From the NCBI GenBank assembly GCA_003133225.1, contig PKWL01000041.1:124151-188150 (forward strand): 64,000 nucleotides of DNA, in the 5' to 3' direction. This DNA comes from Janthinobacterium sp. GTDB lineage: Bacteria; Pseudomonadota; Gammaproteobacteria; Burkholderiales; Burkholderiaceae_D. Each line of letters begins with the position of its first letter. Position 1 is the first letter of the stretch. The notes under the pieces were generated by a model, which was given only the letters and a program-made list of their open reading frames with translations, had not been told where the DNA came from and did not search any database. Below, one piece after another: positions 3,297 through 35,226 of this stretch. A program made the translations under genes and the position numbers.

Positions 3297-4120
3297 TAAC
3301 ATCTCCTTTGAATTAATTTATAAAAAATTACAACTACTTCTGAACGGCTTTTGGGGCAAGCAAAACTTTGGCGAACATCCGATTGATTTGCGCTGCGTCA
3401 AGCGTCGCGAACCGGCTGAAGATGGGACTGTTCGTTCCAACGCATTAATTTTGTCCAACCGGCGCGACGTGCGCGGGTTGCGCGCGCGAGCGACCAACAT
3501 CGCGTGCGAATAGTTTCAAATTGTAGCGGTGATTTTTATATATTAATTCTGGTAATTATGGCCACTTCCAGAATTTTGTATTTGCCATTAACGATTGTAC
3601 CAAATATTATATTTAATACAGAGCCCTGGCGCCAAGGCCTGCAAATTCTCGCCACTGAGCAAACGAAGGTCCTGCTGGTAGTTCAGAGGATTTTATTTTT
3701 GGAGCATGAGGGGAATGGGAATTTTCGCCCCCGCTCACTAGGCCAGCCGTGAGGCCAAGGGCGGCCAATCGGCCTTCGCGATCGCCTTTTGCGATCCGGC
3801 GGAAATGGTCTTTGGCCACCTCGGCATCCGTGTTTCGCGCCCACATGTGCCAAGGTTAAATACGTCCAGCAGGCGCCGCTAGCCAATTTTGCAGGCAGAA
3901 CTTTGCCATGCGGCCGCCCCCATCCGCCGTCGCGAATGATCCTGCGCCGAGCTCTTTTGCAGCGCCCCCTGGACGTCAATCTGGCGCAACGCTGGTTGAG
4001 GTTGCGAGCTTAAATGTCATCGGACCTGCGCCAAAAACGACATAAAATTATAAATTTCCGCTCGGAAACAAAAAACAGGTACTATCTTTCTTCTTGCTCA
4101 CTTTTTTGGAAAGGGTAACT
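3297..4120. other. gene-poor spacer with an AT-rich island
   Basis: No frame here has recognisable protein character. Positions about 3510-3625 are markedly richer in A+T than the neighbourhood and include an 8-bp inverted repeat (AATTCTGG at 3545-3552, CCAGAATT at 3568-3575, 15-nt spacer). Another A/T-rich segment at 4040-4110 directly precedes the riboswitch and probably holds the promoter for the downstream transglycosylase. Small frames at 3504-3752 and 3613-3846 were judged not to be genes. Confidence 0.5.
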
Positions 4121-4208
4121 GCAGCAACATCCCGATATTGGCAAACCCGTTGAAAAGCGGGGACGCAAAGCTTCTGGTCTACGGGCTCGCCTACGACAGC
4201 AGAGCTGC
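4121..4208 (+). promoter_or_regulatory. cyclic-di-GMP-I (GEMM-I) riboswitch
   Basis: The sequence matches the GEMM-I aptamer core in order: GGCAAACC (4140-4147); a six-pair stem CCCGUU/AGCGGG closed by a GAAA tetraloop (4146-4161); the nearly invariant GGGACGCAAAGC (4160-4171); then a second helix with GUC/GAC and GGC/GCC pairs around symmetrical UAC internal loops (4177-4197). Outer arms GCAGC (4121-4125) and GCUGC (4204-4208) pair. It is in the sense direction, about 180 nt before a lytic transglycosylase lipoprotein gene. A later hairpin with GATTA/TAATC ends (about 4230-4258) may belong to the expression platform, but no U-tract follows, so translational or anti-termination control cannot be told apart. 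The direction of the response is not readable. Confidence 0.88.
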
Positions 4209-4391
4209 ACGCAGCGTTTGAAAAGGGGAGATTAGGAAAGCAACTTCCTCTTTAATCGGATACTCCGTTGGCAGTCATGCACCCGCCCCACAAAGCTCGT
4301 TCCCTGCGCTAGATCACCGATCTTTGTTCACTGTCGTGAGTTCGATGCCGCCTCACAGCGGAATCCCACACAACGCATCGTGGAGAAGATC

Positions 4392-5213
4392 ATGCCCACA
4401 ACTCAGCTATCCCACCCTGGACGGGCCCTGCTTGGGGCCCGGAAAACCGGCCCGGCAGCGCCAAAAGCGCGGCCATGGAACGCGCACCCATGGACCGTAG
4501 GCGCCGCCGCCATCGGCGCCGCTCTCTTGAGCGCCTGCTCGGGCATGCCCCCGGCTGCCCCGGCCGGCGCATCGGGCGAGGGCGGCGCGCCAATGAAAAC
4601 GCCGCCTCCAGTGCAGGTCACCGTCAAACCGGAGCGCGCGCGCGCCATGTCGGCGCGCGATATTCTTCAGGAATGGGGCGTCTATGGATTTGCCGCGAAG
4701 GGGCGTAAAGGCAAAGCTGCGGGCCCGCGCGCATTGGGGGCGATGGAGGTAACCGAGTACAGCGCTTCGATCCAGGAAATCGTGGCCAACGCGACCTGTC
4801 GCTATTGTGAGCAAAAGCCGTACCATCAAATGGTTCTTCAAGCGTCAAATCTGTATGGCGTGCCGTCCGGACTGATTCATGCCGTGATCCAGAAAGAGTC
4901 CGGCTACAATGCTGGCGCCCGCTCCCCGCGAGACGCACGCGGCCTGATGCAAGTTACGCCAGGCACGGCTAGATTTGTGGGAGTGGAAAAAAGTGACAGC
5001 CTGTACGATCCGCAAACGAACATCAACGCCGGTGCTGCCTATCTGAAATACCTGATGCATACGCACGATACCTTCGATAAACTGCTCGCCGCTTACAACT
5101 CGGGACCGGGAAATGTGCGCAAATACAAAGGGGTGCCGCCGTTCACCGAGACCAGGCGCTACGTGAGCGACGTGAAGCGCTACTACGCGATGACGTCGCG
5201 CGATGTGCCATGA
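4392..5213 (+). CDS. lytic transglycosylase lipoprotein (SLT/GH23 domain)
   Basis: A 273-residue envelope enzyme that should cleave the MurNAc-GlcNAc bond of peptidoglycan, releasing 1,6-anhydro products. A hydrophobic segment ends in the lipobox LLSAC (Cys49), after an unusually long charged N-region. A Pro/Ala-rich linker follows. The C-terminal SLT domain (about residues 150-265) has the catalytic glutamate in IQKESGYN (Glu169), then ARGLMQVTPGTA and AAYNSGPGNV. The ATG at 4392 is chosen because GGAG lies six bases upstream; a GTG at 4380 is a weaker alternative. It is a single-gene unit behind a cyclic-di-GMP riboswitch, implying wall remodelling tied to the motile/sessile switch. Such enzymes often open the wall for flagella, pili or secretion systems; which one cannot be told here. 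Confidence 0.9.
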   Translation: MPTTQLSHPGRALLGARKTGPAAPKARPWNAHPWTVGAAAIGAALLSACSGMPPAAPAGASGEGGAPMKTPPPVQVTVKPERARAMSARDILQEWGVYGFAAKGRKGKAAGPRALGAMEVTEYSASIQEIVANATCRYCEQKPYHQMVLQASNLYGVPSGLIHAVIQKESGYNAGARSPRDARGLMQVTPGTARFVGVEKSDSLYDPQTNINAGAAYLKYLMHTHDTFDKLLAAYNSGPGNVRKYKGVPPFTETRRYVSDVKRYYAMTSRDVP

Positions 5214-10880: not shown

Positions 10881-13046
10881 TCACCCGCCAACGGGGGCGC
10901 CTTGCGCGGCCATCGGGCCGCGCCGCTTGGGGGGTGGTAACGTTTTTTCTTCCAGCAGCATCTGTTCGAGTTCCGGCACGGACACGGGCGGGCTGAAATA
11001 ATACCCCTGGATTTGATCGCAGCAGTGGCGTCGCAGATAAGCCAGTTGCGCCGCCGTTTCCACCCCTTCTGCGATCACGTCCAGCTTTAAGCTATGAGCC
11101 ATGCGGATGATCGTCAAAGCAATGGCGGCATCGTCCGGGTTGCTCGTGATGTCGCGGATAAAGGCGATGTCGATCTTCAATTTATCGATGGGGAAACGGC
11201 GCAAATAGGCCAGGCTGGAATAGCCTGTGCCGAAATCGTCGATGGAAATCTGCACCCCGCGCTTCTTTAAATTGCGCAAACTGGCAATGGTGCGTTCCGT
11301 GTTGACCATGAGAGTGCTCTCCGTCAATTCCAGTTCCAACAGATTGGCCGTGATGCCATTGTCAAAGAGGCCATTGCCGACATCCCGATCCAGATCCCCT
11401 TCAACGAATTGGCGTCCAGAGGCGTTCACCGAGACTTGAACCGGGCCAATCGGGGAGCGCATCCATAGCCCGATTTGCTTGCACGCGCTGGCGATGACCC
11501 AACTTCCCACCCGCACGATGAGCCCGGTCTCTTCCAAGACGTGGATGAACTCTTGCGGCGGCACCAGGCCGTGGCCGGGCCGCTGCCAGCGGATCAAGGC
11601 TTCGAGGCCGGCGATGCGGCCGCTATTGAGTTTCACCTTGGGTTGGTAGTGCAAAACGAATTCACCTTGTTCGACTGCCTTGCGCAAGGCCGTCTCCAAG
11701 TCGCGCCGGGCCAATACTTCGACATTCATTTGCGCCGTGAAAAAACGGTAAGCGTCGCGTCCGGCCTGTTTGGCCCGGTACATCGCCGTGTCCGCGTATT
11801 TGATCAAGGTTTCAGGGTCCGATGCATCATCGGGATGGACCGTGATGCCGATGCTGGCGGTCACGCTCACCTCGTGGCCTCGCAGCTCGAACGGCGCGCG
11901 TAGCACATCGCGGATTTTATCGGCGACCTGGGCGGCGTCTTGGCGGCCGTCTTGCATCACCAGGATCAGGGCAAACTCATCCCCACCGAGGCGCCCGACC
12001 GTATCGCGGATGCGCACGCATTGGATCAAGCGGTTGCTGAACTGGCCCAGTAGTTCGTCGCCAATGGCGTGCCCCAGCGTGTCGTTTACGTTTTTGAAGT
12101 GATCCAAGTCGATGAACAGGACGGCGACCAGCCAGCCGCCATCCGCGGCCTGGGTCAAGGTCTTTTTCAAGGTCTGATAGAACAGCATGCGGTTGGGCAA
12201 TCCCGTTAAGGCATCGTAATGGGCCATATGATGCAAGCGTTGCTCCGCTTCCTTGCGCTCGGTGATGTCGCGCAGCACGCTCACGATGATCCAGTCGGCG
12301 CCGCAGCGTTGGGCATGCCGATGCACTTCGACTTGCAAGTGAGAACCGTCCTTGCGCCGGATCTGGGTTTCTGTCAATTCGTTTGCACTTTCGCCGGCGA
12401 TGATGGCATCGTACAGGCTCTCTAGCTGCGCCGGCGTGGCCGCGCCCAGCTGCGTCGGGCCGAGCTGGAATAATTGCTCGCGCGTGCAGCCGAGCATGTC
12501 GCAGGCGGTCGCATTGACCTCGACAAAGCGCATGGTGCTGCGGTTGACGAGGAAAATCGCATCGGCGCTGACGTCCATCGCCGTGCGGAAACGTTGCAAG
12601 GCGACCGTGCGCGCCTGCACCTGCTGCTCTAAGATCGCGCTATGGTTTTGCAGAAAATCGCCGTATTCCTTCAGGCGCAATAAATTACGCACCCTCAGCC
12701 ACAATTCGGCGCGGTCGACGGGCTTCGTCAAAAACTCCTCCGCGCCCGCATTCAGGCCGGCCAGGCGGGCGCTGCGGTCGATTTGCGCCGTCACCATGAT
12801 GATCGGAATATTCGAGGTGGCGGGGCGGGCCTTGAGGATGTTGGCCACCTGGTAGCCGTCCATGCCGGGCATCATGATGTCGAGCAAAATCAAGTCCGGC
12901 GCCCGCTCCCCGATCAGGGCCAAGGCTTGTTCGCCGTTGGCAGCGCACACGGTGACATAGCCTTCGGGGCGCAGCAACGCTTCGAGCAGCTTGCGGTTTT
13001 GGACCTCGTCATCGACGATGAGGATGGTGGCCGGCAGGGTGCTCAT
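10881..13046 (-). CDS. response regulator with REC-PAS-GGDEF-EAL domains (cyclic-di-GMP turnover)
   Basis: A 721-residue signalling protein. Residues 1-130 are a receiver domain (phospho-acceptor Asp56 in LILLDIMMPG, conserved Lys in LTKPVDR); a PAS domain covers about 150-270; the diguanylate cyclase domain (about 280-445) has an intact GRLGGDEFAL active site; the EAL phosphodiesterase domain (about 450-700) has EALIRW, NASGRQF, ELTEST, DDFGTGYSSL, KIDIAFI and EGVET, all consistent with catalysis. Both activities look intact, so net output cannot be predicted. Its ATG overlaps the TGA of the upstream CheY-like gene (ATGA), so it is translationally coupled to the kinase operon and probably phosphorylated by it. 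The product nucleotide is the ligand of the riboswitch at 4.1 kb. Confidence 0.93.
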   Translation of the reverse strand: MSTLPATILIVDDEVQNRKLLEALLRPEGYVTVCAANGEQALALIGERAPDLILLDIMMPGMDGYQVANILKARPATSNIPIIMVTAQIDRSARLAGLNAGAEEFLTKPVDRAELWLRVRNLLRLKEYGDFLQNHSAILEQQVQARTVALQRFRTAMDVSADAIFLVNRSTMRFVEVNATACDMLGCTREQLFQLGPTQLGAATPAQLESLYDAIIAGESANELTETQIRRKDGSHLQVEVHRHAQRCGADWIIVSVLRDITERKEAEQRLHHMAHYDALTGLPNRMLFYQTLKKTLTQAADGGWLVAVLFIDLDHFKNVNDTLGHAIGDELLGQFSNRLIQCVRIRDTVGRLGGDEFALILVMQDGRQDAAQVADKIRDVLRAPFELRGHEVSVTASIGITVHPDDASDPETLIKYADTAMYRAKQAGRDAYRFFTAQMNVEVLARRDLETALRKAVEQGEFVLHYQPKVKLNSGRIAGLEALIRWQRPGHGLVPPQEFIHVLEETGLIVRVGSWVIASACKQIGLWMRSPIGPVQVSVNASGRQFVEGDLDRDVGNGLFDNGITANLLELELTESTLMVNTERTIASLRNLKKRGVQISIDDFGTGYSSLAYLRRFPIDKLKIDIAFIRDITSNPDDAAIALTIIRMAHSLKLDVIAEGVETAAQLAYLRRHCCDQIQGYYFSPPVSVPELEQMLLEEKTLPPPKRRGPMAAQGAPVGG

Positions 13047-32065: not shown

Positions 32066-32370
32066 GGTCCGTTTTTCAGGCGCCGACTTTTGCGCCAAGG
32101 CGGACACCGGGCCTCCCGCGCGCAGCTCGGCGCGCGGCTTCCCCGGCGCCCTGTTGCGCGCGCCGCCGGCACGCCGAACGTAATTTCGGCGACGGACTGA
32201 TGGTTGTTGCGTTACAATACCGAGTGCTATTCTTAACCGCTTTTGGAATGCCGAACGCAATACAGCCCTTCCCCACAACTTGATGTGCAATCCGCTAACC
32301 GGTCAGGCCGTGTCGCGGAAGGTTAGATTAACCCGCTAATCTCGCGAAACGCGAAGAAAGGTGAGCAATA
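32066..32370. other. gltA-odhA spacer, promoter region of the odh genes
   Basis: No gene recognised. As gltA ends in a strong terminator, the promoter of odhA-odhB-lpd must be here; sequence around 32205-32240 (GTTGCGTTACAATACCGAGTGCTATTCTT) is the most promoter-like, with imperfect boxes. The segment before odhA includes an AAAGGTGAG ribosome site. Confidence 0.45.
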
Positions 32371-35226
32371 ATGATGCAGCAATTTAGCGACAACTCCTAC
32401 CTGTTTGGTGGCAATGCGCCGTACGTAGAAGACTTGTATGAAGCCTATCTGAATAATCCCGGCTCGGTGCCGGACAACTGGCGTGCGTATTTCGACGCCA
32501 TGCAAAACGTGCCGGCCGTCGATGGCTCGGACAAGCGCGACGTCGGCCACGCTTCAGTGATCGCCTCCTTCGCCGAGCGCGCCAAAGCCGGCCCGATCCG
32601 CGTCGTCGTGGCCTCGACCGACGTTGAAATGGGCCGCAAACGCGTCGCCGCCACCCAGCTCATCGCGGCCTACCGCTACCTCGGCACGCACTGGGCCAAT
32701 TTAGATCCGCTGCAACGCCAGGAGCGGCCCTCGATCCCGGAATTAGAACCGAGCTTCTACGGCTTCACCGATGCCGACATGGATACGGTTTTTAATATCA
32801 GCAACACGTATTTCGGCGTCGAAACGGCGACCTTGCGCGATCTGATCAATTTTCTGCGCGACACCTATTGCCGTTCCATCGGCGCCGAGTTCATGTACAT
32901 TAGCGACCCTGCGGAAAAACGCTGGTTGCAGGAAAAACTGGAATCGATTCGCTCCACCCCGAGCTTTAACGCGGACAAGAAAGTGCATATCCTGGAACGC
33001 TTGACCGCGGCCGAGGGCTTGGAGCGCTATTTGCACACCAAATATGTGGGCCAGAAGCGCTTCTCCCTTGAGGGCGGCGAGACCTTCATCAACTCGATGG
33101 ACGAGACCATCCAGCGCGCCGGCGAAAAAGGAATCCAGGAAATCGTGATCGGCATGGCCCACCGCGGCCGCCTGAACGTGCTGGTCAACACCTTGGGCAA
33201 GAGCCCGCAAGAACTGTTCGAAGAATTCGAAGGCCGGCACGGCGAGGAACTGCCGTCGGGCGACGTCAAATATCACCAGGGTTTCTCCAGCGATATTTCG
33301 ACGGCCGGCGGCCCAGTCCACCTGTCGCTCGCCTTCAATCCGTCGCATCTCGAGATCGTCAACCCGGTCGTCGAAGGTTCGGTTAAGGCGCGCATGGACC
33401 GGCGCGGCGACAAGGAAGGCAAGGAAGTGCTGCCGATCCTGGTGCATGGCGACGCCGCATTCGCCGGCCAAGGCGTGGTCATGGAAACCTTGAACCTGGC
33501 GCAAACGCGCGGTTACGGCACCGGCGGCACACTGCATATCGTGATCAACAACCAGATCGGCTTCACCACCTCCGATCCGCGCGATTCGCGCTCGACCCTG
33601 TATTGCTCGGACGTGGTCAAGATGATCGAAGCGCCGGTGCTGCACGTCAACGGCGACGACCCTGAAGTCGTGGTGCTGGCGACCCAGATTGCGCTCGACT
33701 TCCGCATGGAGTTCAAGAAGGACATCGTCGTCGACATCATTTGCTACCGCAAGCTCGGCCACAACGAGCAAGATACGCCGGCCCTGACGCAGCCTTTGAT
33801 GTACAAAAAAATCGCCCAGCACCCGGGCACCCGCAAGCTGTACGCGGACAAACTGGCAGCGCAAGGCATCATTCCCGCCAACGGCGGCGACGCCATGGTG
33901 GCGTCGTATCGCGACGCCATGGATGCCGGCAAGCATACGGTCGATCCCGTCATTTCGAACTTCAAGAACAAATACGCGGTGGACTGGCTGCCGTTTCTGA
34001 ACCGCAAATGGACCGACGTGGCCGACACCGCCGTGCCGATGACGGAACTAAAGCGCTTGGCGACCCGCATCACCACCGTGCCGGAACACTTTAAGGTCCA
34101 CTCGCTGGTCGAAAAGGTGCTCGCTGACCGCGCCGCCATGGGGCGCGGCGAAGTCAATCTGGACTGGGGCATGGGCGAGCACATGGCTTACGCCACGCTG
34201 GTGTCGTCCGGTTACGCGATCCGCCTGACCGGCCAGGATGCCGGCCGCGGCACGTTCGTGCATCGCCACGCCGTGCTGCACGATCAAAACCGCGAGCGCT
34301 GGGATGCCGGATATTACATCCCCCTGGAAAATGTGTCGGACGGCCAAGCGCCGTTTACCGTCATCGACTCGGTCTTGTCGGAAGAGGCGGTACTGGCCTT
34401 TGAATACGGCTATTCAACCGCTGAACCGAATACCTTGACGATCTGGGAAGCCCAGTTTGGCGATTTTGCCAATGGCGCGCAAGTGGTGATCGACCAGTTC
34501 ATCAGCAGCGGCGAAGTGAAGTGGGGCCGCGCCACGGGCTTGGTGATGATGCTGCCGCATGGTTACGAGGGTCAAGGACCGGAGCACTCGTCGGCGCGTC
34601 CTGAGCGTTTCCTTCAGCTATGTGCCGACAACAATATGCAGGTGGTGCAGCCGTCTTCCGCGGCGCAGATTTTCCACGTGCTGCGGCGCCAGATGGTGCG
34701 CCAGTTCCGCAAGCCCTTGGTGATCCTGACACCGAAGTCGCTGCTGCGCAACAAGGATGCCGGCTCGCCCCTGACCGACCTGGCCAAAGGCGGTTTCCAT
34801 ACCGTGATCGGCGAAGTCGATGACAAGATCGACGCGAAAAAGGTTAAGCGCGTCGTGGCCTGTTCCGGCAAGGTGTATTACGACCTGGTCAACGCGCGCA
34901 AAGCGCGCGGCCAAAATGACACCGCCATCATCCGCGTCGAGCAGCTGTATCCGTTCCCGCACAAGTCGTTCGCCGCGGAACTGAAAAAATTCCCGGCCTT
35001 GAACGAAGTGGTGTGGGCCCAGGACGAGCCGCAAAATCAGGGGCCATGGTTCGCTCTGCAACACAATATCTTGGAAAACCTGGAGGCAGGGCAACGCCTG
35101 GCGTATGCTGGTCGTCCCGCTTCCGCCTCGCCTGCGGTCGGTTACTACGACAAGCACTATGCGCAGCAAAAGGAATTGTTGGATACGGCTTTTTCGAAGT
35201 TAAAAGGTTTTATCCTGACCAAATAA
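32371..35226 (+). CDS. odhA: 2-oxoglutarate dehydrogenase E1 component
   Basis: A 951-residue thiamine-diphosphate enzyme (SucA type) that decarboxylates 2-oxoglutarate and passes the succinyl group to the E2 lipoyl arm. The N-terminal E2-binding segment NSYLFGGNAPYVEDLYEAYL is intact. TPP-domain motifs: GMAHRGRLNVLVNTLG, HGDAAFAGQGVVMETLN and INNQIGFTTSDPRDSRST; the C-terminal transketolase-like part contains the LPHGYEGQGPEHSSARPERF loop. The ATG has a ribosome site AAAGGTGAG. It begins the odhA-odhB-pspC-like-lpd unit. Confidence 0.97.
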   Translation: MMQQFSDNSYLFGGNAPYVEDLYEAYLNNPGSVPDNWRAYFDAMQNVPAVDGSDKRDVGHASVIASFAERAKAGPIRVVVASTDVEMGRKRVAATQLIAAYRYLGTHWANLDPLQRQERPSIPELEPSFYGFTDADMDTVFNISNTYFGVETATLRDLINFLRDTYCRSIGAEFMYISDPAEKRWLQEKLESIRSTPSFNADKKVHILERLTAAEGLERYLHTKYVGQKRFSLEGGETFINSMDETIQRAGEKGIQEIVIGMAHRGRLNVLVNTLGKSPQELFEEFEGRHGEELPSGDVKYHQGFSSDISTAGGPVHLSLAFNPSHLEIVNPVVEGSVKARMDRRGDKEGKEVLPILVHGDAAFAGQGVVMETLNLAQTRGYGTGGTLHIVINNQIGFTTSDPRDSRSTLYCSDVVKMIEAPVLHVNGDDPEVVVLATQIALDFRMEFKKDIVVDIICYRKLGHNEQDTPALTQPLMYKKIAQHPGTRKLYADKLAAQGIIPANGGDAMVASYRDAMDAGKHTVDPVISNFKNKYAVDWLPFLNRKWTDVADTAVPMTELKRLATRITTVPEHFKVHSLVEKVLADRAAMGRGEVNLDWGMGEHMAYATLVSSGYAIRLTGQDAGRGTFVHRHAVLHDQNRERWDAGYYIPLENVSDGQAPFTVIDSVLSEEAVLAFEYGYSTAEPNTLTIWEAQFGDFANGAQVVIDQFISSGEVKWGRATGLVMMLPHGYEGQGPEHSSARPERFLQLCADNNMQVVQPSSAAQIFHVLRRQMVRQFRKPLVILTPKSLLRNKDAGSPLTDLAKGGFHTVIGEVDDKIDAKKVKRVVACSGKVYYDLVNARKARGQNDTAIIRVEQLYPFPHKSFAAELKKFPALNEVVWAQDEPQNQGPWFALQHNILENLEAGQRLAYAGRPASASPAVGYYDKHYAQQKELLDTAFSKLKGFILTK

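Follow-up and report, generated by a model that had tools for sequence, protein, structure and literature searches.

A predicted c-di-GMP-I riboswitch aptamer conserved upstream of a lytic transglycosylase gene in three related bacterial genera

The RNA element described here shares the consensus, the tetraloop, the pocket bases and the secondary structure of the c-di-GMP-I riboswitch class (Rfam RF01051), but differs from the described members in the gene that it precedes. The enzyme encoded by that gene has an SLT domain and a catalytic glutamate in common with Slt70 and MltC and is presumably lipid-anchored, as is MltC; it differs from both in its length of 273 aa and in scoring below the NCBIfam cutoff for all eight subfamilies or domains that it matched. 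In Clostridioides difficile, the PPEP-1 riboswitch belongs to the same aptamer class and likewise lies before an exported, envelope-acting enzyme, but PPEP-1 is a secreted protease that cuts surface proteins rather than peptidoglycan, and its host is Gram-positive (PMC11477304). The YjbJ motif (WRC-39-1) of Streptococcus is likewise an RNA candidate upstream of a predicted lytic transglycosylase, although it is a different motif with no known ligand and stands among its authors' weak candidates (PMC11109978). A wall hydrolase under c-di-GMP influence is represented by EagA of Erwinia amylovora, a peptidoglycan hydrolase whose action is c-di-GMP-dependent; EagA is, however, a DD-endopeptidase, the c-di-GMP pathway involved is called uncharacterised, and the available parts of that paper claim no riboswitch (PMC7705223). 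An earlier report pairing a c-di-GMP riboswitch with a lytic transglycosylase was not found in the available portions of the open-access literature, and an earlier listing is possible. The riboswitch class is known, then, while the SLT target is lineage-specific, conserved and apparently new.

The window, a stretch of 64,000 nucleotides from a Janthinobacterium sp. contig (PKWL01000041.1), carries the aptamer on its forward strand at 4130..4212, where RF01051 matches with 72.6 bits (E 2.7e-12) over model positions 1-87 of 87, the gathering score being 35 bits. The first-pass annotation had proposed GEMM-I signatures upstream of the gene, and this score places the proposal well above the threshold that could have undone it. 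All of the signatures are present within 4140-4206 and follow the GEMM-I order, namely GGCAAACC (4140-4147), a six-pair stem with a GAAA cap, GGGACGCAAAGC (4160-4171) and a second helix (4169-4206). The capped stem is the P2 hairpin (4146..4161, forward strand), in which 4146-4151 pair with 4156-4161, and the second helix is P3 (4169..4206, forward strand); both are delineated by the RF01051 match and the consensus fold, and P3 by the orthologue alignment as well. A consensus fold of the 12 orthologous aptamers holds 21 pairs, none of them broken and three with compensatory change, and since the 12 sequences are very alike, covariation adds little beyond the Rfam match. The P3 tip is shorter in the window than in the 11 other aligned orthologues, and the innermost P3 pair, which would close a loop of 2 nt, is probably open. 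One part of the original description did not hold, namely that outer arms close the element. The putative arms, TGCAGC at 4120-4125 and GCTGCA at 4204-4209, run into the 3' strand of P3, and in the 12 orthologous leaders the aptamer flanks pair no better than shuffled sequence (mean z +0.41). No P1 closing helix was detected in these leaders, and outer arms acting as the switching helix were not supported. P1 is poorly conserved across the c-di-GMP-I class.

G20 of the Vc2 aptamer is a selectivity factor among cyclic dinucleotides, with G20A producing a shift toward cGAMP, and C75 of the pilM aptamer pairs with a ligand base (PMC6274999, PMC9262584). The window aptamer has both the ligand-selecting G (rather than A) and the ligand-pairing C, as G4140, G4141 and C4208 on the forward strand, and the pocket positions are invariant across the 12 orthologous aptamers aligned, among them the G by which c-di-GMP sensors are told apart from cGAMP sensors, a base that had been singled out for inspection. 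We take 4140 to be the probable place of G20 and presume C4208, the counterpart of C75 of pilM, to be equivalent to C92 of Vc2; given that 4140 and its neighbour 4141 are both G in all 12 aptamers, the assignment to c-di-GMP is independent of the exact position of G20. By sequence, the leader element belongs to the c-di-GMP-I aptamers and its pocket is of the c-di-GMP type; binding of c-di-GMP is predicted.

The gene downstream occupies 4392..5213 on the forward strand, with ATG 4392 as the preferred start (an in-frame GTG at 4380 is the alternative), a stop ending at 5213 and a Shine-Dalgarno (SD) sequence, GGAGAAG, at 4382..4388 on the same strand. An SLT domain (PF01464) spans residues 148-250 with 90.6 bits (cutoff 21.3; E 6.5e-26), and the best relatives of solved structure are Slt70 (E 2.1e-13), other soluble lytic transglycosylases and MltC. 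Glu169 (codon 4896-4898) aligns with the glutamate of the Slt70 ES motif, which we take to be catalytic. By eye, a lipobox, LLSAC, can be read at residues 45-49 (Cys49) behind a hydrophobic stretch, with an unusually long n-region, and a CxxC pair (C136/C139) precedes the SLT domain; an orthologue from another genus (G055) that is 53% identical retains the lipobox and a CxxC pair likewise ahead of the domain, as well as the catalytic region. An AlphaFold model of the enzyme built from five sequences had a mean pLDDT of 40.8 and was discarded. These features uphold the first-pass reading of the gene as a lytic transglycosylase lipoprotein, and its product is predicted to be a lipid-anchored periplasmic lytic transglycosylase.

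When 245 genomes of the family were searched with the protein at E 1e-40 or better, relatives were found in 15, the genome of origin included, and in 4 of 44 genera. An aptamer of the c-di-GMP-I clan lies upstream in 12 of these 15 loci, which leaves 11 of 14 outside the genome of origin and bears out the suggestion that the leader should recur in relatives. RF01051 is the best model in 11 of the 12 aptamer-bearing loci (71.5 to 87.2 bits). In the remaining locus, L044, the sister model RF03167 (c-di-GMP-I-GGC) scores best at 62.6 bits, and the RF01051 search also finds the element with 71.3 bits; its pocket bases match those of the other aptamers, and we set aside a separate identity as clan competition. 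Named hits to the protein fall in Noviherbaspirillum (L048-L050) and in a Herminiimonas MAG (L051), and genus g63 was read as Noviherbaspirillum from the protein stretches that L034, L035 and L041 share with L048-L050. Of 15 Noviherbaspirillum genomes searched, 12 have the gene and 10 of those 12 have an RF01051 match just upstream. The four named loci, inspected by eye, have other flanking genes than the window, which indicates that the leader and the gene have been kept together while their surroundings changed. In three loci (L043, L046 and L047) no aptamer was found upstream of the transglycosylase at E 0.01, so the link between aptamer and gene is not obligatory. The genes without an aptamer are scattered over a poorly resolved tree on which the label requires three changes, and loss of the aptamer in L043, L046 and L047 is likely. 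The aptamer is conserved with this transglycosylase family in three genera.

At E 1e-40, the transglycosylase was absent from the other sampled genomes of the same genus, 18 of which are listed among the misses. The nearest relatives of the window copy in the tree are two Noviherbaspirillum copies, with a support of 86/84 that falls under the tool's 95/80 mark. SucA, encoded on the same contig, shares 91-92% identity with its counterparts in the five other same-genus genomes sampled and 86-88% with those in five sampled Noviherbaspirillum genomes, and its closeness to the former indicates that the contig belongs to this genome. Transfer of the transglycosylase into this species is likely, the alternative being loss elsewhere in the genus. 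As a separate observation, just one more RNA family exceeds its cutoff in the window, the sucA RNA motif (RF01070) at 32285-32367 (84.8 bits, cutoff 40). It directly precedes an ORF (32371-35226), and full-length relatives of the encoded protein occur throughout the family.

We gauged how unusual the target is through a census of 227 c-di-GMP-I loci drawn from the genome of origin, its relatives, Noviherbaspirillum, the order and the phylum, which became 222 once shared centres were merged; many are mutually orthologous and a few are cut by contig ends. The census covers the fetched loci; most of the other c-di-GMP-I matches listed, and any unlisted ones, lie outside it. An SLT gene lies downstream in 12 of the 222, all belonging to the one orthologous family and including the window's own, as judged with a profile that was built from the 12 transglycosylases and would miss unrelated wall hydrolases. 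One further SLT gene (L079) lies upstream of its aptamer on the other strand. Among 170 loci outside the transglycosylase family, a DNA profile located the aptamer in 165, and for 153 an ORF of 90 aa or more was present close by; the longest ORF was taken, so that some will be in the wrong frame. Pfam assigned these 153 downstream ORFs to DUF1631 (47), subtilase (12), DUF3718 (10), TfoX (8) and LPMO_10 (5), among other families, and no SLT family was found in the 19 of 19 entries of the first list or the 25 of 34 shown of the second. In Vibrio, c-di-GMP-I riboswitches are established upstream of TfoX and GbpA genes, and recovery of such target types suggests that the census behaves as expected. 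The first-pass annotation had contrasted the target with the usual pilus, flagellum or chitin genes, and this stands in part: very few of these loci lead into an SLT gene, but the other targets seen in this order and phylum are not confined to those three classes, as DUF1631 proteins, subtilases and TfoX testify.

Several other loci in the census deserve mention in their own right. Genes for DUF1631 proteins adjoin the c-di-GMP-I aptamers seen here more often than any other kind. The genome of origin has two c-di-GMP-I matches, the second of which (L002:316-403, contig C67) lies 141 nt upstream of a gene for a putative exported, kumamolisin-like (S53) serine protease (E 7.2e-23); proteins resembling this protease follow the aptamer in most of the same-genus loci inspected, and were missed by Pfam in four of four cases tested and by NCBIfam in two of two. 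In Noviherbaspirillum, four loci (L066, L068, L072 and L074) have c-di-GMP-I aptamers of a different appearance (CGCAGGGCAAACC..) ahead of short proteins (89 to 111 residues) that resemble one another and seem to be exported, and three more (L064, L075 and L076) have unusually long c-di-GMP-I matches of 109 to 111 nt ahead of proteins that by eye are subtilase-like.

We consider it probable that the leader acts as a c-di-GMP-sensing riboswitch governing production of the lipid-anchored periplasmic lytic transglycosylase. Binding of c-di-GMP would change transglycosylase output by way of the linker between the aptamer and the start codon (4213..4391, forward strand), the presumed expression platform, which ranges from 83 to 179 nt among the 12 leaders. 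The SD sequence may be occluded by this linker, mostly through an upstream strand, and ligand binding would then shift SD pairing, so that control would fall on translation initiation, with Rho perhaps acting afterwards. In the window, the candidate anti-SD strand lies at 4319..4331 (forward strand), with predicted pairing probabilities of 0.65-0.95 at eight of nine SD positions, and the duplex taken alone is not exceptional (z -0.97, p 0.157). Across the 12 full folds, the SD sequence is under half unpaired in 10 (mean 0.31), and in seven it pairs best with a strand 39-77 nt upstream; in the remaining five the best partner is nearby, within the coding sequence, or weak. Compared with shuffles, the duplexes of SD and upstream strand have a mean z of -0.96 (Stouffer -3.33, for 12 related leaders and uncorrected for kinship), with p <0.05 in two leaders and a positive z in another two. 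Removal of the aptamer altered SD access from 0.31 to 0.21, which was not significant (Wilcoxon p 0.077). Pairing of the 3' aptamer flank with the linker was not above chance in the 12 leaders (mean z -0.16), leaving that alternative pairing unsupported as the switch, and a hairpin just past the aptamer proved too weak (mean z -0.67 and -0.71 in two runs over the 12 leaders, against -0.28 to 0.41 further on). No intrinsic terminator was found in the window leader by a scan of 3900-4450, and T-runs of at least five occur in two of the 12 orthologous linkers, directly behind a hairpin in one (L038), so an intrinsic terminator was rejected as the platform. We lean towards translational control by SD occlusion over intrinsic termination and, by the slightest of inclinations, towards a switch that is OFF at high c-di-GMP.

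The strongest competitor to SD occlusion is Rho-dependent termination in a C-rich, G-poor linker, with the ligand exposing or hiding a rut-like stretch. The C/G ratio of the 12 linkers is 1.11-1.87, nine of them exceeding the control 90th percentile of 1.22 (control median 0.94), and the finding of a hairpin followed by a T-run in a single linker also counts in its favour; the control consists of 41 upstream regions in the window taken from mechanically called ORFs, however, and is rough. The C-rich linkers keep Rho-dependent control live, and we regard it as a minority prospect of some substance. These ratios, together with the pairing results, lead us to limit the claim to the sensor and its target, with translational control as a lean. 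It is improbable that the aptamer acts on another target, such as a small RNA or a short ORF within the leader, and that the transglycosylase has its own downstream promoter: the linker is long and yielded no switching strand, which would suit such an arrangement, but the order of aptamer and gene is the same in 12 loci despite varying linker sequence, length and neighbours, and the consensus scan found no promoter-like site in the leader. Least probable is a cGAMP-sensing aptamer or a degenerate relic, for although cGAMP sensors were initially annotated as c-di-GMP sensors, so that an RF01051 match alone is insufficient to exclude one (PMC9262584), and the shortened P3 tip of the window copy also counts that way, both candidates for the selecting base are G throughout and the consensus pairs are intact in every aptamer. 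Sensing of c-di-GMP ahead of the transglycosylase gene remains our preferred reading. Its proposed support from a nearby GGDEF-EAL operon was dropped, as the GGDEF-EAL gene (10881-13046), which lies behind histidine kinase and response regulator genes, is 5.7 kb away on the reverse strand and adds nothing.

Upstream of the aptamer, a palindrome, TTTCC-GCTC-GGAAA (4055..4068, forward strand), may be an operator overlapping the -35 region, and TACTAT (4080..4085, forward strand) is a probable -10 element, in the place where, by eye, the orthologues have TATnCT; the clearer leaders have such an element 9 to 11 bases past the palindrome. A consensus scan of 3900-4450 returned no sigma-70 promoter. 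By eye, the palindrome is exact (TTTCC-N4-GGAAA) in seven of the 12 transglycosylase leaders and degenerate in five, and was not seen in the 75 nt inspected at each of 16 other c-di-GMP-I loci. TTTCCN{3,6}GGAAA matches the window once, against a chance mean of 0.42 and with 35 of 100 shuffles giving one match or more, and genome-wide TTTCC-N4/5-GGAAA has 17 sites against nine for a reversed control, which makes the palindrome weak on its own; we did not accept it as a genome-wide operator and retain it as a lead. A long shot is a portable cassette, acquired from a Noviherbaspirillum-like donor and made up of the palindrome, the aptamer and the transglycosylase, in which c-di-GMP directly gates the cleavage of periplasmic glycan strands. 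If such a cassette exists, it would open a passage through the wall for a surface structure or control how wall fragments are released. In Vibrio cholerae, c-di-GMP rises when wall fragments are supplied from outside (PMC11726461), which makes a feedback loop conceivable.

That aptamer and gene have been kept together in relatives suggests that the signal sets the amount of the enzyme directly. If the switch works as proposed, a second messenger known to govern surface life would control a wall-cutting enzyme at the level of its mRNA, without a protein receptor in between. This would be a simple link from c-di-GMP to wall remodelling, for which the three orthologues that have no aptamer would offer a natural control.
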